Shown one piece after another: positions 6,175 to 40,913 of a stretch of DNA of 41,473 nt; position 1 is the stretch's first letter; every line of letters begins with the position of its first letter. The translations under genes and the position numbers were made by a program. The DNA comes from Candidatus Nomurabacteria bacterium GW2011_GWE2_34_25 (lineage in GTDB: Bacteria; Patescibacteriota; Minisyncoccia; Phycocordibacterales; UBA9973), in assembly GCA_000990325.1 (NCBI GenBank), contig LBPS01000013.1, positions 1-41,473 on the forward strand, in the 5' to 3' direction. Below the pieces are notes generated by a model that was not told the DNA's origin, ran no database searches, and was given only the letters and a program-made list of their open reading frames with translations.

Positions 6175-7140
6175 ATGTTTTATCCCATACAACTACTAGC
6201 TGATTGGTTAACTTATACAGTCTTTGGAATTATCCCAAAGACCTTACTAGCTTCGGCTGTAAATTTCTTCATTTTTGACACTATTAAAATCTTTATTCTT
6301 CTTGCTGGTATTATTTTTATTGTTTCTATAATTCGTTCGTATCTACCACCAGAGAAAATACGAGTAATACTTTCACGAAAGAATAAATATATAGGAAATG
6401 TCCCAGCCTCACTTCTAGGAATCATTACTCCGTTTTGTTCTTGCTCAGCTATTCCACTTTTCCTTGGTTTTGTTCAGGCGGGGGTCCCACTTGGAACTAC
6501 ATTTTCTTTTCTAATAGCATCACCAATGATTAACGAAGTAGCACTTGTATTACTCTTGGGATTATTTGGTTGGAAGATTGCAATTATCTATATAGTAACA
6601 GGCCTCATTATCTCAATACTTTCTGGGGTTGTAATAGGCTCTTTAAAAGTAGAAAATCTTGTTGAATCATTTGTTTATGAAAATTCTGTAAATGGAAACA
6701 ATCTTGAACTACCTAGTTTATCTCGCATAGAAAGAATTAATTATGCACTAGATTACACAACAGATATTTTGAAAAAAGTTTGGCCTTACATACTAGTAGG
6801 TATTGGTCTCGGAGCTTGGATACATGGTTATTTACCTGCTGACTTCTTGGTAGAATATGCTGGGTCTGGTAAATGGTATGCTGTACCACTTGCTGTACTT
6901 ATCGGTATTCCTCTTTATTCAAATGCGGCAGGAGTAATACCTCTCGTATCTGCACTAACAGAGAAAGGTGTATCTATGGGTACTACGCTCGCATTTATGA
7001 TGTCTGTAACGGCCTTATCACTTCCAGAATTTATGATTCTTAAGAAAGTTATGAAAATAAAACTTATCTTTATTTTTGCAGGAATTGTAAGTGTAGGGAT
7101 AGTATTTACAGGGTATTTATTTAATATTATTTTAAAATAA
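6175..7140 (+). CDS. ArsP/YraQ-type permease (UPF0718, DUF318)
   Basis: 321 residues with about eight hydrophobic helices. The family signature TPFCSCSAIPLFLGFVQAG is present at about 83-101, with the conserved Cys-x-Cys in a membrane helix, followed by SFLIASPMINEVAL. A second half repeats the theme (IPLYSNAAGVIPLV). Members of this family include ArsP, which exports trivalent organoarsenicals; many others have unknown cargo. It starts 1 nt after the thioredoxin-like gene, so the two are translated from one message. A role in moving a thiol-reactive compound is inference. Confidence 0.87.
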   Translation: MFYPIQLLADWLTYTVFGIIPKTLLASAVNFFIFDTIKIFILLAGIIFIVSIIRSYLPPEKIRVILSRKNKYIGNVPASLLGIITPFCSCSAIPLFLGFVQAGVPLGTTFSFLIASPMINEVALVLLLGLFGWKIAIIYIVTGLIISILSGVVIGSLKVENLVESFVYENSVNGNNLELPSLSRIERINYALDYTTDILKKVWPYILVGIGLGAWIHGYLPADFLVEYAGSGKWYAVPLAVLIGIPLYSNAAGVIPLVSALTEKGVSMGTTLAFMMSVTALSLPEFMILKKVMKIKLIFIFAGIVSVGIVFTGYLFNIILK

Positions 7141-7155
7141 TATTTTAAAAGACCG

Positions 7156-7184
7156 GTTACAATTTGAGAAAAAGATAGTATAAT
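7156..7184 (+). promoter_or_regulatory. Promoter for the gene at 7191
   Basis: GTTACA at 7156-7161, a 17-nt spacer and TATAAT at 7179-7184. The ATG is 6 nt after the -10 box, so the transcript should be leaderless. Confidence 0.6.
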
Positions 7185-7190
7185 GCCCTT

Positions 7191-7739
7191 ATGAACAACC
7201 CACAAAAACTTGGTATTAAAGTATTCTACTATTATCTTTCCAGAAAGATTTCGCTAGGAGTTATACTACTAGTAGTTTCTTTTATTGTTTCATCTTCGAA
7301 AGATTTCATCGTATCAAAGATGGTTATGCTTTTGCCTGTTAGTGTTACAGCAGTTGTCGTCAACTTTTTAACTAGTGGATTATTTATCATATCAGCTGTA
7401 TTTATACTTGGAGCATTTGTAACAAGTTGGTTTAAATATACAAGTTGTGACTTTTCTTTAGACGAGAATGCTTTCAATATTAGAAGAGGATTCTTCACTA
7501 AGAAGGAAATTTCTATACCATATAGACAAATTCAGAATGTAAATATTGAGCAATCTATAAGTCACAAAATGCTCGGAATTGGTAAGTTGGTTATCCTAAC
7601 AGAAGGGGACCATAGTGAAAATAATGGTGAAGCTTCTGGAGGATCTTTTGATGTTATAGACTACGTTTTAGCACATAAAGTTCGTGAATTTATCTTACAA
7701 AGAGCTAATTTTCAAATAGTTAAGGATTCTACAATTTAA
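7191..7739 (+). CDS. Membrane protein with bacterial PH domain (bPH2/YdbS-like)
   Basis: 182 residues. Two transmembrane helices (about 22-38 and 52-80) are followed by a bacterial pleckstrin-homology domain of the YdbS/YdbT type: FNIRRGFFTKKEISIPYRQIQ is divided here as FNIRRGFFTKKE and ISIPYRQIQNVNIEQS, and GIGKLVILTEGD follows. In this family the conserved R-G-F and P-Y-x-x-I-Q positions form the first strands of the fold. The role of these proteins is poorly known, and they are often linked to the envelope. Its own promoter sits just before the ATG, and the mutarotase gene begins 11 nt after its stop. Confidence 0.82.
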   Translation: MNNPQKLGIKVFYYYLSRKISLGVILLVVSFIVSSSKDFIVSKMVMLLPVSVTAVVVNFLTSGLFIISAVFILGAFVTSWFKYTSCDFSLDENAFNIRRGFFTKKEISIPYRQIQNVNIEQSISHKMLGIGKLVILTEGDHSENNGEASGGSFDVIDYVLAHKVREFILQRANFQIVKDSTI

Positions 7740-15876: not shown

Positions 15877-15893
15877 TGCTATCTTTTTATTTT

Positions 15894-16020
15894 AAGCACG
15901 CAAACTTCATAAAATTGCTCTCGGACTCACCACACATATTTTCTTGCTAGAAAATTGCTCTTCTCGCCCCGTCGGTCTGCGAAAGGGTTCGCTCGAGAGC
16001 AATTTTATTGCGTTTGCTTA
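15894..16020. repeat. Long imperfect palindrome (3'-end palindrome family), copy 1
   Basis: The arms ATAAAATTGCTCTCG (15909-15923) and CGAGAGCAATTTTAT (15994-16008) are perfectly complementary, and TAAGCA/TGCTTA pairs further out. The core carries TCTCGGACTCACCACACA and AAGGGTTCGCTCGAGA, both also present in the copy at 36361. It lies between the convergent ABC and terC genes, and the terC stop codon is inside the right arm. It probably ends transcription from both sides, but its shared core suggests it is also a dispersed element. Confidence 0.75.
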
Positions 16021-16925
16021 TTTAATTTCACTGATTTGAAGACGAAGTATCCGATTATAGCGAAAGTTAGAAGAGGGGAAACGTATGAAGGAATATGAAC
16101 TCCAAATGCGTCTGCCATCATAACTATCCCTAGAACGAAGATAGAATACATAGCTCCATTTTTCAAGAAGGCGTACTTTTTAATTCTATCTATATTACTG
16201 ATAGTTAACTTTCTTAATACAAAAGCACCAAGTCCATTACCTAAAATAATAAGAGGAACAGAAAGTGTAAAGGCAAAAGCTCCAAGAACTCCATCTATAG
16301 AGAATGTCATATCGATTATTTCTAAATAAAGAATTTTACTAATATCAGACATCTTGTTGTCGCTTGAGAGAAGAGCCTTCTCTCCTTTTTCAGCATTTTC
16401 TTTGAATCCGTGAGTTATGAAAAATGCTGTTGATCCAACAACTGCTGAAAACGCCAGCATAGGGTTTATTTTGAGAGCATACCAGACTACAACAGCAAGA
16501 AGTATTGATACTATTGCGAAGAACCAGACTCCATTTTTGAAAAAGAATTTTTCGTGACGTAGTCCAAAGTTCTTGGTTTCAAGGAATAGCCAATGAAAGA
16601 AAAGAAAGACAAGGAATATTCCTCCTCCTAAGAGAAGTATGGGGGCGGATTCTTCAATAGCAAGGTGAACACTAGGATCATTGGAAAAAGCGGCGGTTAA
16701 AGACCCGATAGGTCCCAATGATGGCATTGTGGCCCAAATGATAGCCCAAGGCAAAAGTCCACGGACTACGAAAACTGCAAAGAAAAATCCATAAAGTAGA
16801 AACCAGCGACGACCCTTTTTGCCCATGGTGCCCAAAACTTCAGCATTTATAACGGCGTTATCAATACTTGAAATAACTTCAAATAGACAAAGTCCCAAAA
16901 CCGTAAGAATCATTGTGAAAATCAT
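16005..16925 (-). CDS. TerC/DUF475 family integral membrane protein
   Basis: 306 residues with eight or nine transmembrane helices. The family-defining acidic helix signatures are visible: EVISSIDNAVINAEVL near the N-terminus and its counterpart DMTFSIDGVLGAFAF at about 206-220. In TerC-like proteins these Asp residues sit in the membrane and are thought to bind a metal ion. TerC relatives are linked to manganese export and tellurium resistance, while the DUF475 branch has unknown cargo. It is transcribed away from its neighbour at 16976 from a divergent promoter region. Its last codons and stop lie inside a long palindrome. Confidence 0.87.
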   Translation of the reverse strand: MIFTMILTVLGLCLFEVISSIDNAVINAEVLGTMGKKGRRWFLLYGFFFAVFVVRGLLPWAIIWATMPSLGPIGSLTAAFSNDPSVHLAIEESAPILLLGGGIFLVFLFFHWLFLETKNFGLRHEKFFFKNGVWFFAIVSILLAVVVWYALKINPMLAFSAVVGSTAFFITHGFKENAEKGEKALLSSDNKMSDISKILYLEIIDMTFSIDGVLGAFAFTLSVPLIILGNGLGAFVLRKLTISNIDRIKKYAFLKNGAMYSIFVLGIVMMADAFGVHIPSYVSPLLTFAIIGYFVFKSVKLNKQTQ

Positions 16926-21541: not shown

Positions 21542-21564
21542 TCGTATTTTAAAAATTTAAACCT

Positions 21565-21685
21565 ATGTATTTGGAAGTGAGGTGTGATTCCTCCACTGTG
21601 CCGCAACGGTAATGCTCGTAAGAGATAAGTCCGATCTTAATACAATGGTGACCCCCGAGCAGGAGAAATCTACTATTATCTTTAG
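21565..21685 (+). ncRNA. Cobalamin riboswitch
   Basis: GGAAGTGAGGTGTGATTCC followed by TCCACTGTGCCGCAACGGTA matches the conserved core of cobalamin riboswitches (GGTG...ACTG.GCCCGCAACGGT form), and AAGTCCGATC matches the downstream AGTCCGA element. It lies 24 nt after the transporter gene and just upstream of a strong terminator. GCAGG at 21659-21663 can pair with CCTGC at 21695-21699 of the terminator, offering an antiterminator. B12 would therefore shut off the two genes downstream. The core match is strong; the switching pairs are inferred by eye. Confidence 0.88.
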
Positions 21686-27350: not shown

Positions 27351-27360
27351 AAGGAATGAA

Positions 27361-27479
27361 TCCCGTTAGAAGCCGCGGTCACGGGATAAAAAAGTAAATT
27401 AATAATAAATATTTTAAATAAAAAATAGTAAGTTGTGTTAGTTATAGAAATATAACGACCGCGACCTGCTTCTAACGGG
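27361..27479 (+). mobile_element. 119-bp start-codon element (MITE-like), copy in front of pilC
   Basis: Terminal inverted repeats: left TCCCGTTAGAAGCCGCGGTC and right GACCGCGACCTGCTTCTAACGGG, with four extra bases (AGGT) in the right arm. The middle ~70 bp is AT-rich without a gene. A 5-bp direct repeat ATGAA flanks it (27356-27360 and 27480-27484), and the right copy is the pilC start. Removing one repeat and the element restores an AAGGA-ATGAAATTT junction just behind pilB. Confidence 0.85.
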
Positions 27480-28694
27480 ATGAAATTTAAATATAAAGAA
27501 CAAAGTAAAGAGGGGAAAATTATTGAAGGGATTGCAGAATCTCCTGATATGTTTGCTTTAGCTAAAGAGATAAGAGAGCAGGGTGGGGTTCCTCTTTCAA
27601 TCAAAGAATTTAATGAAAAAGGCATTAAAAATATTGTAAACTTTGATGTATTTACCGGAGTTTCACTCTCTGAAAAGATTATGTTTACTAACAATCTTAG
27701 TGGAATGCTTTCAGCTGGTCTTGCTCTTACGCGAGCACTTTCAGTTTTAGAAAAACAGACATCTAATAAATATTTCAACGGTGTTTTAAAAAGTTTAATT
27801 GACGACATTAACGGAGGAGGCACACTTTCTTCTGGAATGAAAAAGTTTCCGAAAGTTTTTTCTGGGGTATTTGTTTCAATGGTGCATTCAGGAGAAGAAT
27901 CTGGTGGCTTACCTAGGACTCTTTCTGAAATAGGTATCACACTAAAGAAAACTTATGATCTAAATAAAAAGATTAAGGGAGCACTTATATATCCAAGTGT
28001 TATACTTTTTGCTATTTTTGCCATTGGAATATTAATGATGATATATGTGGTACCAACACTTACTGCAACATTTAAAGATGTAGGAATGGAATTGCCTGCT
28101 TCAACACAATTTATAATATTTATATCCGATTCCCTTAAAGACCACTTTTTACTTTTTGCTACAGCCATGGCTGCATTCATTGGGTCTTTTGTAGCTTTTG
28201 CAAAACTTAAATCAACACAAAAATATTTTGATCTCATTATACTTAAAATTCCATTACTTGGAACTCTGATTAGAGAGATGAATACAGCCAGGACAACTCG
28301 GACTTTATCCTCCTTGATTTCATCGGGAGTTGATCTTTCGAGAGCTTTAACTATTACAGAAGAAGTTTTGCAAAATGTTCATTATAAAAAATTAATACAT
28401 GATGCTGTTCTTTCTATAGAGAAAGGAGTTTCACTCTCTGCTTCTTTTAAGAAACACCCGGAACTTTATCCTATTATGGTAGGTGAAATGATTGAAGTTG
28501 GAGAAGAGACTGGTAAATTATCTTCTATGCTTATGGATATAGCCAGCTTTTATGAAAATGAAGTAGATGACAAAACGAAAAATTTATCAACTATTATAGA
28601 GCCAGTATTAATGGTGTTCATCGGAGCTGCTGTAGGATTCTTTGCTGTTGCGATGATTAAACCGATGTATTCGGTTATGGATAGTATAAAATAA
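27480..28694 (+). CDS. pilC: Type IV pilus inner-membrane platform protein
   Basis: 404 residues of the GspF/PilC family: a short N-terminal region (KYKEQSKEGKIIEGIAESPD) and two copies of the T2SSF domain, the first at about 65-190 with GLALTRALSVLEKQ and VSMVHSGEESGGLP, the second at about 265-395 with GVDLSRALTITEEVL and GEMIEVGEETGKL. Three transmembrane helices are present (about 165-185, 215-240, 370-395). PilC links the PilB ATPase to pilin insertion and extraction. Its ATG is also the right-hand flank of a 119-bp element, so the native upstream leader was displaced by it. Three prepilin genes follow with spacing of 0-3 nt. Confidence 0.93.
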   Translation: MKFKYKEQSKEGKIIEGIAESPDMFALAKEIREQGGVPLSIKEFNEKGIKNIVNFDVFTGVSLSEKIMFTNNLSGMLSAGLALTRALSVLEKQTSNKYFNGVLKSLIDDINGGGTLSSGMKKFPKVFSGVFVSMVHSGEESGGLPRTLSEIGITLKKTYDLNKKIKGALIYPSVILFAIFAIGILMMIYVVPTLTATFKDVGMELPASTQFIIFISDSLKDHFLLFATAMAAFIGSFVAFAKLKSTQKYFDLIILKIPLLGTLIREMNTARTTRTLSSLISSGVDLSRALTITEEVLQNVHYKKLIHDAVLSIEKGVSLSASFKKHPELYPIMVGEMIEVGEETGKLSSMLMDIASFYENEVDDKTKNLSTIIEPVLMVFIGAAVGFFAVAMIKPMYSVMDSIK

Positions 28695-32887: not shown

Positions 32888-32895
32888 TGAATGAA

Positions 32896-33012
32896 TCCCG
32901 TTAGAAGCCGCGGTCGCAGTTTCTATTTGTGGATTAGTATAAAAATAATTATTTAATTTAATCAAGCAATGTAGGTTCTATTAAAAATAGACCGCGACCT
33001 GCTTCTAACGGG
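32896..33012 (+). mobile_element. 117-bp start-codon element (MITE-like), copy in front of pgk
   Basis: The ends are the same as in the pilC copy: TCCCGTTAGAAGCCGCGGTC on the left and GACCGCGACCTGCTTCTAACGGG on the right, again with AGGT extra in the right arm. The ~70-bp AT-rich middle differs from the pilC copy. The 5-bp direct repeat ATGAA flanks it (32891-32895 and 33013-33017), and the right copy is the pgk start codon. Confidence 0.85.
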
Positions 33013-34137
33013 ATGAAATCAATAAAAGACATAGAAAATTTGAAAGGGAAACATGTAATTGTCCGCGTAGACTTCAATGTTCCACAAGATAAAGATGGAA
33101 AGATTCTAGATGATTTTCGTATTAAGTCTATACTTCCGACAGTAGAATATTTACAGAAAAAGGGAGCTATAGTAATACTAGTTGCACATATTGGTGAAGG
33201 TGGAGAGAAGAGCTTAAAGCCTGTTGCTATAAGGCTCAAAAAGTATCTTCCAAACATTAAATTCATCGAGTCATCTATCTTTTCAGATGAGACTAAAAAA
33301 ATTACAGGGACTCTTAAGAATGGAGATGTTGCACTTTTTGAAAATTTACGTAGAGAAATAGGAGAGAAGACGAACTCCCCATCTTTTGCTAGAGGTCTTT
33401 CCCGTTTTGGAGATATATATGTGAATGATGCTTTCTCTGTATCGCATCGAGTCCACGCTTCTATCGTTGGTATTACAAAATATTTACCAAGTTATGCAGG
33501 GCTTCAACTTATAGATGAGATAAATAATTTGTCGAAAGCTTTTAATCCCAAAAAACCTTTTTTGTTTATTTTGGGTGGTGCTAAATTTGAAACTAAGATT
33601 CCTTTGATTAAAAAATTTCTTCGTGATGCGGATCATGTATTTATCGGAGGAGCTATCGCCAACGATTTCTTTAAAGGTAAGGGTTATGAAGTAGGAACAT
33701 CTTTAGTGAGTGATGGTATGGTTCAAGTAAAATCTTTTTTTAAGAATAAAAATTTAGTTATACCGACTGATGTTGTAGTTACCAAAGGAAGCCTAAGTCG
33801 CAATGTTAAGCCAAGTGATGTAACGCACGATGAATGCATTGTCGATATTGGCAAAGATTCAGTTGAGGTGATAAAGGGTCTTATAGAGAAAGCACAGTTT
33901 GTGCTTTGGAATGGACCGCTTGGGATATATGAAAGTGGCTTTGGAAGTGCGACAGAAAATATTCTTAAAATTCTTTCCAAGAGTAAAGCTGTCAGTATTG
34001 TCGGAGGAGGGGACACTGTGGCCCTCATTACAAAACTAAAACTAGGTGATAAGCTCGGCTTCGTCTCAACTGGCGGTGGCGCCACTCTCGACTTCCTAGC
34101 CAAAGGCACTCTACCGGGGATAAAAGCATTGAAATAA
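33013..34137 (+). CDS. pgk: Phosphoglycerate kinase
   Basis: 374 residues, a little shorter than the usual 385-400. Motifs: VIVRVDFNVPQDKDGKI, LVAHIGEGGE, FENLR, VNDAFSVSHRVHAS, FILGGAKFETK, VLWNGPLGIYE, VGGGDTVALI and STGGGATLDFLAKGTLPG, covering the 3-phosphoglycerate and nucleotide sites. The usual S-H-L-G-R-P segment is replaced by AHIGEGGE, probably a lineage variant. It makes ATP from 1,3-bisphosphoglycerate. It belongs with tpiA in a glycolysis pair, but a 117-bp element now separates them, carrying both the duplicated start codon and a short upstream frame. Confidence 0.94.
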   Translation: MKSIKDIENLKGKHVIVRVDFNVPQDKDGKILDDFRIKSILPTVEYLQKKGAIVILVAHIGEGGEKSLKPVAIRLKKYLPNIKFIESSIFSDETKKITGTLKNGDVALFENLRREIGEKTNSPSFARGLSRFGDIYVNDAFSVSHRVHASIVGITKYLPSYAGLQLIDEINNLSKAFNPKKPFLFILGGAKFETKIPLIKKFLRDADHVFIGGAIANDFFKGKGYEVGTSLVSDGMVQVKSFFKNKNLVIPTDVVVTKGSLSRNVKPSDVTHDECIVDIGKDSVEVIKGLIEKAQFVLWNGPLGIYESGFGSATENILKILSKSKAVSIVGGGDTVALITKLKLGDKLGFVSTGGGATLDFLAKGTLPGIKALK

Positions 34138-36360: not shown

Positions 36361-36489
36361 AATAAAACACTCCATAAAAAAATTCTCGGACTCACCACAC
36401 AATAAAATTCTGCTGAATTTTTTGCTCGTACTCGGGCCGTCGCCCTCCGTAAGGGTTCGCTCGAGAACATTTTTATTACGTGTTTTATT
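36361..36489. repeat. Long imperfect palindrome (3'-end palindrome family), copy 2
   Basis: AATAAAACAC (36361-36370) pairs with GTGTTTTATT (36480-36489), and ATAAAAA with TTTTTAT further in. The core has TCTCGGACTCACCACACA and AAGGGTTCGCTCGAGA in common with the copy at 15894, and TTCTGCTGAA, GCCGTCGC and CTCCG in common with the copy at 39568. It begins directly at the rnhA stop and fills the gap to comEC. No gene is seen in it. Confidence 0.78.
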
Positions 36490-37823: not shown

Positions 37824-37871
37824 AATAAAATACATCACTGTGAGCGATCGCTCACAGTGATGTATTTTATT
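37824..37871. terminator. Perfect 48-bp palindromic bidirectional terminator
   Basis: Each 24-nt half is the exact complement of the other, centred on GCGATCGC, with AATAAAA on the left and TTTTATT on the right. It lies between the convergent comEC and sodA genes and can end both transcripts. Confidence 0.9.
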
Positions 37872-37879
37872 TATAGTAG

Positions 37880-38473
37880 CTATGAAGCATTTTTGAAATT
37901 TTGTTCAATTATACTCCAATTTAAATTTGCAAAAAAACTCTCGATGTACTTTTTCTTTTCTGCTGGAGTATAGTCCAGATAGTAAGAGTGTTCCCACATA
38001 TCAAGAGCAAGTACTATAGAAGTTCCAGCTAGGTGGCCTAGGTGTTGCTCGTCTACCCAAGAGATAATTAACTTGTCGCTTGATTTGTCATAATAAAGCA
38101 TAGCCCAACCAATACCACGGGTTAATGCGACAAATTTAAAATGATTTAAGAAATTTTCAAAAGAACCCCATTCTTTTTCTAATGATTTATATAAAGATCC
38201 TTCTTTATTTATTTCTTTACTTCCATCAGAAAGAGAAGAGAAGTAGTATTCATGATTGCGCATGCCACCGAATTCAAAACCGAGGCGACGTTGTAGCTCT
38301 CCTAATATAAAAGCGTTTTTCTCTGGATCATTTTTTAATTCATATAATTTATTAAATATTGTATTTGTGTTTGTCACGTAACCCTTATAAAGCTTTCGAT
38401 GCTCTTCAATTGTTTTTTCACTGATACCAACCAATTTTGGTATATTAAATGTTTTTGTTGTGAATGTTTCCAT
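37880..38473 (-). CDS. sodA: Iron/manganese superoxide dismutase
   Basis: 197 residues. All four metal ligands are in place: H25 (EEHRKLYKGY), H74 (MRNHEYYFSS), D158 and H162 (LALDMWEHSYYLDY). GIGWAMLYYD before the last pair matches the family. It converts superoxide to peroxide and oxygen. The lack of a signal peptide places it in the cytoplasm. Fe or Mn use cannot be decided with certainty. The start codon is the junction with a 119-bp start-codon element; the original leader, with a TATAAA box 6 nt before the duplicated ATGGA, can still be seen beyond it at about 38598-38610. It splits the comEC pair on the opposite strand. Confidence 0.93.
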   Translation of the reverse strand: METFTTKTFNIPKLVGISEKTIEEHRKLYKGYVTNTNTIFNKLYELKNDPEKNAFILGELQRRLGFEFGGMRNHEYYFSSLSDGSKEINKEGSLYKSLEKEWGSFENFLNHFKFVALTRGIGWAMLYYDKSSDKLIISWVDEQHLGHLAGTSIVLALDMWEHSYYLDYTPAEKKKYIESFFANLNWSIIEQNFKNAS

Positions 38474-38592
38474 CCCGCTTAGAGACAGGTCGCGGTCGGT
38501 ATATATAATCTTGATAACAACGACTAGTCTTTATATTATTTATTAATTTATTTTATTTTTGTTAGAAACTGTGACCGCGGTCTCTAACGGGA
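38474..38592 (-). mobile_element. 119-bp start-codon element (MITE-like), copy in front of sodA
   Basis: On the minus strand it begins TCCCGTTAGAGACCGCGGTC and ends GACCGCGACCTGTCTCTAAGCGGG, with the same AGGT extra bases in the second arm. The direct repeat ATGGA (minus strand) flanks it at 38593-38597 and 38469-38473; the latter is the sodA start. The middle is AT-rich and unlike the other two copies. Confidence 0.83.
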
Positions 38593-38644
38593 TCCATAAT
38601 GTTTTTATAAATATTTAATGTTAATATATAAAGTATAACACGTG

Positions 38645-38703
38645 TCCCGTTAGATATCTCTATTTATCAAACAGGCCATAATTATTCATAATATCTAACT
38701 GGG
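38645..38703 (+). mobile_element. 59-bp degenerate start-codon element in front of the ComEC nuclease-like gene
   Basis: TCCCGTTAGATAT on the left and ATATCTAACTGGG on the right are inverted repeats with one extra base. The right end abuts the ATG at 38704, as in the other copies. No clear target duplication is seen (left flank ACGTG, right flank ATGGA), so it may be old or trimmed. Confidence 0.6.
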
Positions 38704-39576
38704 ATGGAACTAAATAGAAAAAATCTACCATATTTACTCCTCATAATTCTACTTATTTGCACTATTGGTATATGGTTTTTTATTTTTAAGAGTAATCGTC
38801 AGAATGATTATCTGAAAGTTGTATTTTTGGATGTGGGGCAAGGAGACGCTATATACATAGAAGCTCCAAATGGAAAGCAGATGCTTATCGACGGAGGACC
38901 AGATGCAAGTCTTCTGTCGAGACTTTCTCAAGTTATGCCTTTTGCAGATCGATCTATAGATATAATACTTGCCACTCATGCTGACATGGATCATATAGGA
39001 GGATTTCCACTTTTGTTAGATAATTATAAAATTAAAAACATTATTGAAAATGGAGCAGAAGGGGATTCTAAAATTTATACAAGCTTAGAAGAAAAAATCA
39101 TAAAGAAAAAAATAAATAAAGTAATTGCTAAAAGAGGCATGCAAATTATGCTAGATAAAAAAAGAAATATTTATTTTGATATTATTTTCCCTGATAGGGA
39201 TGTATCAAGTTTTGAAAGTAATGATGGCTCAATAGTAGGGAAGCTTACGTATGGAGAAAGTACTTTCATGCTGACGGGAGATGCTACAACTTATACAGAG
39301 AATTTAATAGGCTGGAATGAAAGTGACGCTATTTTAGACTCTGATGTTTTAAAACTTGGACACCATGGATCCCGAACTTCTTCGGGTATTCCTTGGCTTG
39401 AAAAGGTAAGCCCTGAAGTTGCGATTATCTCTGTCGATAAAAATAATAAATATGGGCATCCACATAAAGAAATTCTTGATAGGCTTTCATTTTTACAGAT
39501 TCCGTATTTGAGTACTTCTGATGTGGGGAATATAATTTTTAAGAGTGATGGAATGAAACTAATATACGCAAAATAG
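38704..39576 (+). CDS. ComEC C-terminal metallo-beta-lactamase domain as separate gene
   Basis: 290 residues. An N-terminal helix (about 8-28) anchors the domain outside. The metallo-beta-lactamase fold shows FLDVGQGDAIYIEAPNGK, LIDGGPD, ATHADMDHIGGF (the HxDxDH-like site: H-A-D-M-D-H), MLTGDATTY and LKLGHHGSRTSS. This is the standard C-terminal part of ComEC, thought to degrade the non-transported DNA strand. It pairs with the channel gene at 36513, from which it is separated by sodA on the other strand. The start is set by the 59-bp element whose end abuts the ATG. Its stop lies inside the left arm of a palindrome. Confidence 0.9.
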   Translation: MELNRKNLPYLLLIILLICTIGIWFFIFKSNRQNDYLKVVFLDVGQGDAIYIEAPNGKQMLIDGGPDASLLSRLSQVMPFADRSIDIILATHADMDHIGGFPLLLDNYKIKNIIENGAEGDSKIYTSLEEKIIKKKINKVIAKRGMQIMLDKKRNIYFDIIFPDRDVSSFESNDGSIVGKLTYGESTFMLTGDATTYTENLIGWNESDAILDSDVLKLGHHGSRTSSGIPWLEKVSPEVAIISVDKNNKYGHPHKEILDRLSFLQIPYLSTSDVGNIIFKSDGMKLIYAK

Positions 39577-39967: not shown

Positions 39968-40007
39968 ATGTGAGTCCTATGCTATCATATAAACTATGGA
40001 AATGCAA

Positions 40008-40283
40008 TCCCGTTAGAGATAATTATGTATTACTACACTTATGTATTAAAAAGTAAGAAGGATGGTAAATTTTACACTGGATTTACAAATGATCTACGGA
40101 AGCGCCTTTCATATCATAATAGTGGTAGGTCTATCTATACAAAAGGTAGAGGCCCATTCGTTGTTGTTTATTATGAAGCATGTTTAGAAAAAGAAAAAGC
40201 AATGTCGAGAGAATTATATTTAAAATCGGGAATGGGCAAGCGTTATCTTAAAAATAGATTAGGCGCTTCCTATCTCTAACGGG
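40008..40283 (+). mobile_element. Autonomous-looking GIY-YIG start-codon element
   Basis: 276 bp. The ends TCCCGTTAGAGATA (40008-40021) and TATCTCTAACGGG (40271-40283) are inverted repeats. A 6-bp direct repeat ATGCAA flanks it (40002-40007 and 40284-40289), the right copy being the first two codons of the M50 protease. Nearly all of the interior is the GIY-YIG gene, whose TAA stop is inside the right repeat. The ends match those of the gene-less copies at 27361, 32896 and 38474. Confidence 0.85.
40025..40279 (+). CDS. Small GIY-YIG nuclease encoded inside the element
   Basis: 84 residues, a bare GIY-YIG domain. YTYVLKSKKDGKFYTGFT (4-21) holds the GIY (Y4-T-Y6) and YIG (Y17-T-G19) positions in the variant form of UPF0213/UvrC-like single-domain proteins. 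R25 or R27 in NDLRKRLSYHN and E63 in MSRELYLKSGMG are the likely catalytic Arg and metal-binding Glu. There is no DNA-binding domain beyond the fold. Proteins of this kind are very common in Parcubacteria and usually called GIY-YIG nuclease. Here the gene is bounded by terminal repeats only 17 nt from its start and overlapping its stop, so the nuclease probably mobilises the element. A repair role would not explain the target duplication. Confidence 0.88.
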   Translation: MYYYTYVLKSKKDGKFYTGFTNDLRKRLSYHNSGRSIYTKGRGPFVVVYYEACLEKEKAMSRELYLKSGMGKRYLKNRLGASYL

Positions 40284-40913
40284 ATGCAAGCCATAGATGG
40301 AATATTTTATATAGTAGTACTTATAATGTCTGTAGTGGTTCATGAAGTAGCTCATGGATACACAGCCTATCTTCTTGGTGACAATACAGCTCGCAATAGT
40401 GGACGTCTTACTTTAAATCCTATCAAACACCTTGATCCTTTTGGCTCTGTTATCCTTCCTTTACTTCTTGTCTTTATGAATGCTGGCTTTGTCATCGGTT
40501 GGGCAAAGCCTGTACCTTATAACCCCGCAAATCTTCGTGATGAGAGGAAAGGAACCTTTCTTGTATCAGTTGCAGGAATAGTTGCGAACCTTATACTCGC
40601 TATTGTCTTTGGATTACTTATGAGGTTTGCCCCTTTATTTATAGGTGTTGCTTTTCTTGGAGCATTTTATAAAATCGCATCTATTATTGTTTTATTAAAC
40701 TTAGTACTTGCACTGTTTAACCTAATACCTATTCCACCTCTTGATGGTTCAAAAATTTTGTTTTCATTTTTACCTGTTAAATATAGGTATATAGAGAACT
40801 TTCTAGAAAAGTGGGGAATGTTTCTACTTCTCTTTTTCATCCTTGTGCTTTGGAGTAAAGTGGCTCCTATAATTTTCATAGCTTTTCATTTAATTACAGG
40901 GATTTCTATTTAA
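40284..40913 (+). CDS. Site-2 protease family membrane metalloprotease (M50)
   Basis: 209 residues with about five to six helices. The zinc site HEVAHG (HExxH) is at about 20-25, WAKPVPYNPANLRDER is the conserved loop, and NLIPIPPLDGSK (N-x-x-P-x-P-x-L-D-G) holds the third ligand Asp. Members of this short branch cleave within the membrane, often without a PDZ domain; substrates are unknown here. The first codons ATGCAA are also the right flank of the GIY-YIG element. The left flank copy keeps the old leader with a TATAAA box 8 nt ahead, so the original gene was probably leaderless. Confidence 0.9.
   Translation: MQAIDGIFYIVVLIMSVVVHEVAHGYTAYLLGDNTARNSGRLTLNPIKHLDPFGSVILPLLLVFMNAGFVIGWAKPVPYNPANLRDERKGTFLVSVAGIVANLILAIVFGLLMRFAPLFIGVAFLGAFYKIASIIVLLNLVLALFNLIPIPPLDGSKILFSFLPVKYRYIENFLEKWGMFLLLFFILVLWSKVAPIIFIAFHLITGISI

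Follow-up and report, generated by a model that had tools for sequence, protein, structure and literature searches.

The window analysed here, a 41,473-nucleotide stretch of Candidatus Nomurabacteria DNA, raises the question of why short open frames with similar N termini lie directly upstream of several of its genes. The initial annotation had listed four such frames, beginning MNPVR, MDPVR, or MQSR, as translation from a captured start codon into the end of a repeated element, and all four were found in the sequence, from ATGs at 27356, 32891, 38597 (minus strand), and 40002. That observation stands once refined: what the peptide chiefly represents is a footprint, in all probability that of a start-codon-targeting mobile GIY-YIG element with miniature copies. 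Five element copies with matched ends TCCCGTTAGA…TCTAACGGGA are present in the window, and each abuts a gene start (pilC at 27480, pgk at 33013, sodA at 38473 on the minus strand, and ORFs at 40284 and 38704). The features, read from the sequence except where a domain model or relatives are named, are as follows.

27356 to 27360, plus strand: captured start codon and next bases, ATGAA, left of the pilC copy; recurs at 27480 to 27484; the empty site is ATGAAATTTAAATA in five relatives.
27356 to 27397, plus strand: leader frame MNPVRSRGHGIKK, then a stop, translated from the captured ATG at 27356.
27361 to 27480, plus strand: copy 1, 120 bp long and gene-less, with ends TCCCGTTAGAAGC...GCTTCTAACGGGA; the pilC start codon takes its A from the final base of this copy.
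27480 to 28694, plus strand: host gene pilC (T2SSF, Pfam PF00482), read from the rebuilt ATG.
32891 to 32895, plus strand: captured start codon ATGAA of the pgk copy; frame MNPVRSRGRSFYLWISIKIII, then a stop, from the ATG at 32891; empty sites in relatives.
32896 to 33013, plus strand: copy 2, gene-less, 118 bp, preceding pgk; empty sites in relatives.
38593 to 38597, minus strand: captured start codon ATGGA of the sodA copy; frame MDPVRDRGHSF, then a stop, from the ATG at 38597.
38473 to 38592, minus strand: copy 3, gene-less, preceding sodA (Sod domains); one additional base in the right end (TAAGCGGGATG).
38645 to 38704, plus strand: copy 5, a short, diverged copy of 60 bp, TCCCGTTAGATAT...ATATCTAACTGGGA (from the minus-strand reading), preceding the gene at 38704.
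40002 to 40007, plus strand: captured start codon ATGCAA, a longer duplication; frame MQSR, then a stop, from the ATG at 40002.
40008 to 40284, plus strand: copy 4, gene-bearing, 277 bp.
40025 to 40279, plus strand: gene for a GIY-YIG nuclease of 84 aa, with an ATG of its own and a TAA stop within the right end (Pfam PF01541, 1.1e-16; nearest solved structure UPF0213 BH0048, 1zg2).

Judged by sequence alone, the product of the ORF at 40284 resembles a membrane protein of the site-2-protease type.

The ends of the element are perfect inverted repeats, (T/C)CCCGTTAGA...TCTAACGGG(A/G), and the recurrence of the shared ends TCCCGTTAGA...TCTAACGGGATG is far above chance. The exact right end had 9 matches in the 767-kb genome, TCTAACGGGATG was present in the genomes of 29 of 61 relatives, often repeatedly, and the reversed pattern was almost absent. 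Relatives carry hundreds more copies of the element, and matches were obtained in 38 of 380 genomes of a phylum-wide sample, some with 10-25 copies. Loci were fetched and 124 right ends were read, with the left end within reach in 106. Most elements are gene-less and measure 115-125 bp (about 120 bp), and a gene-bearing minority of 273-280 bp (about 275-285 bp among the relatives) contains a single GIY-YIG ORF. The ends match over 13 bp, the variable positions 11, 12, and 13 being complementary in 104, 101, and 104 of the 106 copies, respectively, compared with a shuffled mean of ~53. G-U pairs are nearly missing among these co-varying positions, so that DNA repeats fit better than pure RNA pairing of the ends. 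A point against the mobile-element reading is that, in a transcript, pairing of the 13-bp ends could mask the right-hand start codon. In 32 of 97 copies a perfect local hairpin adjoins the inner side of the right end (1.8% in shuffled sequence), with stems that differ and are compensated, which suggests a folded single strand at some step. As in a MITE, the copies are short and gene-less, with terminal inverted repeats, a duplicated target, and empty counterparts in relatives.

Of the 106 two-ended copies, 73 repeat the host start codon exactly, and all 73 were at gene starts. Counted from the ATG, the exact left repeat includes one further base in 21 copies, two in 49, and three in 3, with no duplications of 7 or more bases in this set. 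Open reading frames of at least 50 aa follow 71 of the 73; the other two are a nested copy and one at a truncated glycosyltransferase gene. An ORF of at least 100 aa was opened in 102 of the 124 copies versus 9.7% of random ATGs. Start codons constitute 30% of the ATG sites outside genes in the window, which gives P ~3e-39 for 73 of 73 under neutral landing, presuming that start codons and intergenic ATG sites are equally open to insertion. Because most copies had been located via a pattern containing ATG, two checks free of that bias were made, and both agree. A search ending at GGG, inspected by eye, gave paired ends ~105-130 bp apart with the ATG on the gene side among the matches listed for two genomes (G045 and G053). 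Among the gene-bearing copies found via their protein, 25 of 32 had NTG at their right-hand end, with an ORF of at least 50 aa opening there in 22 of the 25. In two of the gene-bearing copies without a right-end NTG (L257 and L266), CAT precedes the left end; here the nuclease gene is apparently oriented away from the host gene, whose start codon would abut the other end. Copies away from a gene start are also present (L003, L028, L006, L186, and L188), and about half of the GTG-type matches are intergenic, mostly the shorter ones. Two further candidate non-gene copies, L049 and L050, were set aside since they resemble left ends seen from the opposite strand, L050 being the left end of the element preceding pgk in a second genome, G023.

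The left repeat had been described as the old start codon with its upstream region, and the exact duplications agree with this description, as do the empty sites at pgk and pilC. In at least seven same-genus relatives, pgk starts ATGAAATC or a close variant directly after tpi and is element-free; the nearest of them, G004, has a PGK that is 91% identical. The pilC gene starts ATGAAATTTAAATA, again element-free, in five relatives. G023 has its own, different insertions at both genes, and these two start codons were hit independently in the window genome (G000) and in G023, by copies that differ in subfamily or end type. From the dispersed copies, the duplications, and the empty sites we infer that the element is mobile. 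That the matched ends are instead an immobile, native cis-regulatory RNA hairpin of start regions in the candidate phyla radiation (CPR), with the repeated ATG a coincidence, is scarcely credible: restriction to gene starts, paired ends, and the local right-hand hairpin with its co-varying stems would suit such a structure, but the empty sites contradict it, and the exact duplications, nested and tandem copies, gene-bearing versions, and independent insertions at pgk and pilC all speak against it.

The start codon of the displaced gene is rebuilt with a base of the element. The base preceding the left CCCG is T with ATG genes in 149 of 150 cases, C with GTG genes in 29 of 29, and G with a CTG gene in 1 of 1. 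In G023, pilC reads ...aggaATGAA-CCCCGTTAG...CTAACGGGG-TGAAATTT, that is, the left repeat ATGAA is retained and the gene start is now GTG; the same gene starts with ATG in five relatives, and the GTG in G023 adjoins a C...G copy. This change from ATG to GTG, together with the match of the end base, indicates that the element contributes its final base as the first letter of the new start codon. Since the element supplies that base, the true duplication is TG plus 1-3 bases. Other C...G copies with an ATG on the left and a GTG on the right are L193, L285, L295, L299, L305, and L307.

On the mobile-element reading, the element enters a start codon behind its first base and ahead of the TG, and TG with 1-3 further bases is duplicated. 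The GIY-YIG protein may cut or move the element, with staggered cleavage behind the first NTG base and again 3-5 nt on, and the gene-less copies would be moved in trans. The old start codon and upstream region remain on the left, and on the right a new start codon forms from the last base of the element (A or G) and the target TG, so that the gene stays readable. Translation of the displaced gene would begin at this right-hand codon, presumably through Shine-Dalgarno-independent internal initiation or through re-initiation.

The element start TCCCGTTAGA is constant, so only three leader frames are possible from a captured ATG, and the length of the repeat from its A sets the frame: five bases give M-x-P-V-R, four give M-x-P-L-E, and six give M-x-S-R-stop. 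The 81 copies with an ATG just to the left divide into 51 with M-x-P-V-R, 24 with M-[IVL]-P-L-E/K, 4 with M-x-S-R-stop, and 2 odd cases; frames other than M-x-P-V-R thus account for 37%, a minority of the copies and not most of them. The near constancy that had been ascribed to the first eight codons does not extend across these three classes, and past codon 5 it is found only in the GCCGCGGTC subfamily. Nor does each frame end inside the element, as had been stated: some stop at the right-end TAA, one stops at a TGA overlapping the ATG of the gene, and one (L032) reads through. The L032 leader frame crosses the entire element in frame with the host gene and yields the N-terminal extension MDPVRDVLL...LPISNGMDTNN.

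Three meanings had been offered for these peptides, namely a by-product, a leader coupled to the real gene, and a means of tolerating leaderless hosts. The M-x-P-V-R frame shows no excess of open length in the using over the non-using copies (Mann-Whitney p = 0.79), and the M-x-P-L-E frame is marginally longer when in use (p = 0.04, uncorrected). Selection on the leader frame was not found in the short copies. One-base departures of the left repeat, judged by eye, affect the ATG positions at least as often as the following bases, and some copies with an intact downstream gene lack a left ATG; several of the copies scored as having no left ATG are two elements in tandem, with the outer left ATG located farther upstream. 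The null result for frame length, the failure to spare the ATG, and the copies without a left ATG favor the by-product, which is the best reading for the short copies, and the peptide of gene-less copies is most likely neutral. It is unlikely that the captured ATG and short frame form a functional leader, on which ribosomes melt the left arm and re-initiate at the right start so that the host gene is expressed. Retention of the left ATG in most copies, the TAA-CGGG-ATG contained in the element, the near lack of Shine-Dalgarno sites, and frames that stop 4 nt before the right ATG or overlap it (L036, L052, L102, L107, L109, L112, L117, and GIY-YIG copies) speak for such a leader; however, frame length is independent of use, the three frames differ and one has just four codons, intact genes follow some copies without the left ATG, and by eye the ATG positions are no better conserved than their neighbors. 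Coupling is unsupported as a general function because many copies have no left ATG or stop after four codons.

The tolerance of leaderless hosts is compatible with the data and nothing more specific: Shine-Dalgarno sites are nearly absent (1 of 73), and a -10-like box at leaderless spacing precedes 29 of 71 captured ATGs versus 30 of 122 other starts (p = 0.023). This scarcity and this excess suggest that the target cue might be promoter DNA in its melted state or else the start region as such. We also considered a hairpin by which a Shine-Dalgarno site lying upstream is brought near the gene, and dropped this model because such sites are so rare.

The gene-bearing copies share their ends, target, and duplication with the gene-less copies. 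The window GIY-YIG protein matches PF01541 with 61.3 bits (cut-off 22.6), and the gene is under purifying selection (median pN/pS 0.29 for 276 pairs). It occurs in 114 of 148 genomes of the order, and not all such genes have these ends. No transposase gene of a known class (DDE, HUH/Y1, serine, or tyrosine) was found in the gene-bearing copies, where GIY-YIG is the sole gene. Many of these copies finish ...FLSLTG with a TGA overlapping the host ATGA, and others finish ...SYL at the right-end TAA. In five GIY-YIG copies from different genomes (L191, L195, L203, L255, and L256), the captured host ATG is in frame and is the sole apparent start, the ORF lacking its usual own start at L120/L255 (G048:C9, about 7077-7316), L191, L195, L203, and L256; the readings are MNPVRDNKSWYTYILLSKKDG..., MNTVRDNEGFAYVYVL..., MNPVTVKKSWYTYVL..., and similar. 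Some gene-bearing copies thus appear, from their reading frames, to borrow the captured host start codon for their own GIY-YIG gene. Use of the captured ATG as the GIY-YIG start is a third role that the initial annotation had not foreseen.

GIY-YIG nucleases are known from introns, and an intron-like element excised from the RNA would leave an mRNA with a single start codon. Matched ends with an internal right-hand hairpin, a weak, below-cut-off match to an NCBIfam group I intron endonuclease model, and the presence of the element at essential-looking genes (bL35, bL31, and IF-1, named by sequence) accord with this idea, which is nonetheless very improbable: the window has no Rfam intron match at the gathering threshold, the right-hand host start codon is already complete without excision, and the ends co-vary almost without G-U pairs, like DNA repeats. 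The only Rfam matches in the window were a tRNA and a cobalamin riboswitch, both away from the element copies, so that a riboswitch or intron reading of the copies was rejected, as was a group I/II intron, whose catalytic core has no Rfam match in the window. The cobalamin (AdoCbl) riboswitch, at 21547-21677, is barely over the Rfam threshold.

The mobile-element reading was compared with known systems. I-TevI and the T4 Seg proteins are GIY-YIG enzymes of mobile-intron genes or free-standing homing endonucleases and, as here, a small enzyme is tied to a mobile segment. In our case there is no intron, and there are many different target genes, inverted ends, and a short variable target duplication, and no separate DNA-binding domain is visible in the 84 aa. 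A homing endonuclease with one allelic target site was rejected since the many unrelated genes targeted have only the start codon in common. The closest solved relatives of the nuclease are UPF0213/COG2827 proteins (BH0048, 1zg2; EF2693, 1ywl), which as far as known are ordinary host genes; the window gene instead fills an element of 277 bp bounded by inverted ends. Short palindromic mobile DNA with in-frame peptide footprints in many proteins is also known from Rickettsia, whose palindromic elements lie within coding sequence and contribute to the translated protein; here the host protein is normally unchanged. Bacterial MITEs such as Correia and ERIC are short, gene-less, and often gene-adjacent, with inverted ends, target duplications, and many copies (PMC10969869); the present element differs in that its insertion point is the start codon itself, the first base of which it supplies, and in having a gene-bearing partner with a GIY-YIG nuclease as its only gene and no known transposase class. 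That 2024 review of prokaryotic MITEs mentions neither "start codon" nor GIY-YIG (PMC10969869). The nearest published trace, in the same host group, is a survey of CPR rRNA-gene insertions reporting GIY-YIG insertions that match no intron model and apparently were not spread by homing (PMC11270868). The survey reports rRNA genes only and does not describe ends, duplications, or start-codon targeting (PMC11270868). In the open-access literature we found no description of a start-codon-targeting element; a subscription or preprint report may exist.

Tentatively, and with rather less assurance than for the mobile-element reading itself, we propose an element of ~280 bp powered by a lone GIY-YIG domain of 80-90 aa that recognizes translation or transcription start sites and not a fixed sequence, uses its terminal base to rebuild the start codon, and commandeers the captured start for the nuclease in a subset of copies. 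Such an element, if real, would represent a new insertion-sequence class and rank among the smallest self-sufficient ones. The element lands on start codons, those of essential-looking genes included, and sustains the genes by supplying part of the codon, which poses the problem of how so small a nuclease could locate gene starts. Its footprints account for one class of short, spurious N-terminal frames found in CPR genomes and provide gene callers with a signature, TCTAACGGG before ATG or GTG. The filled and empty sites form natural pairs for studies of initiation in bacteria almost without Shine-Dalgarno sites.

Several related structures were also observed. Tandem pairs at L045, L048, L056, L066, and L067 in G023 have a diverged relative, TCCCTGTTCGCGAT...ATCACGAGAGGGA, followed directly by a standard copy, and at L066 an outer ATGAG duplication encloses both members. 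GIY-YIG elements with other ends (CCCTGTTAAATA, CCCCGTGAAATAA) that are not at ATG (L227, L228, L275, L276, L220, and L279) are sister families with another target. Short GTG-type copies of 46-80 bp were found at L182, L288, L289, L301, and L308; several are intergenic, and some have mirrored flanks (ATCCAC-CCCG...CGGG-GTGGAT); these copies resemble terminator-like hairpins. The window also contains two copies of a second, unrelated repeated hairpin, ...CTCGGACTCACCACACA...CTCGAGAACATTTTTATTACGT, at 15892-16025 and 36369-36481, and a loopless perfect 24-bp palindrome, AATAAAATACATCACTGTGAGCGA plus its reverse complement, at 37824-37871 between convergent genes.
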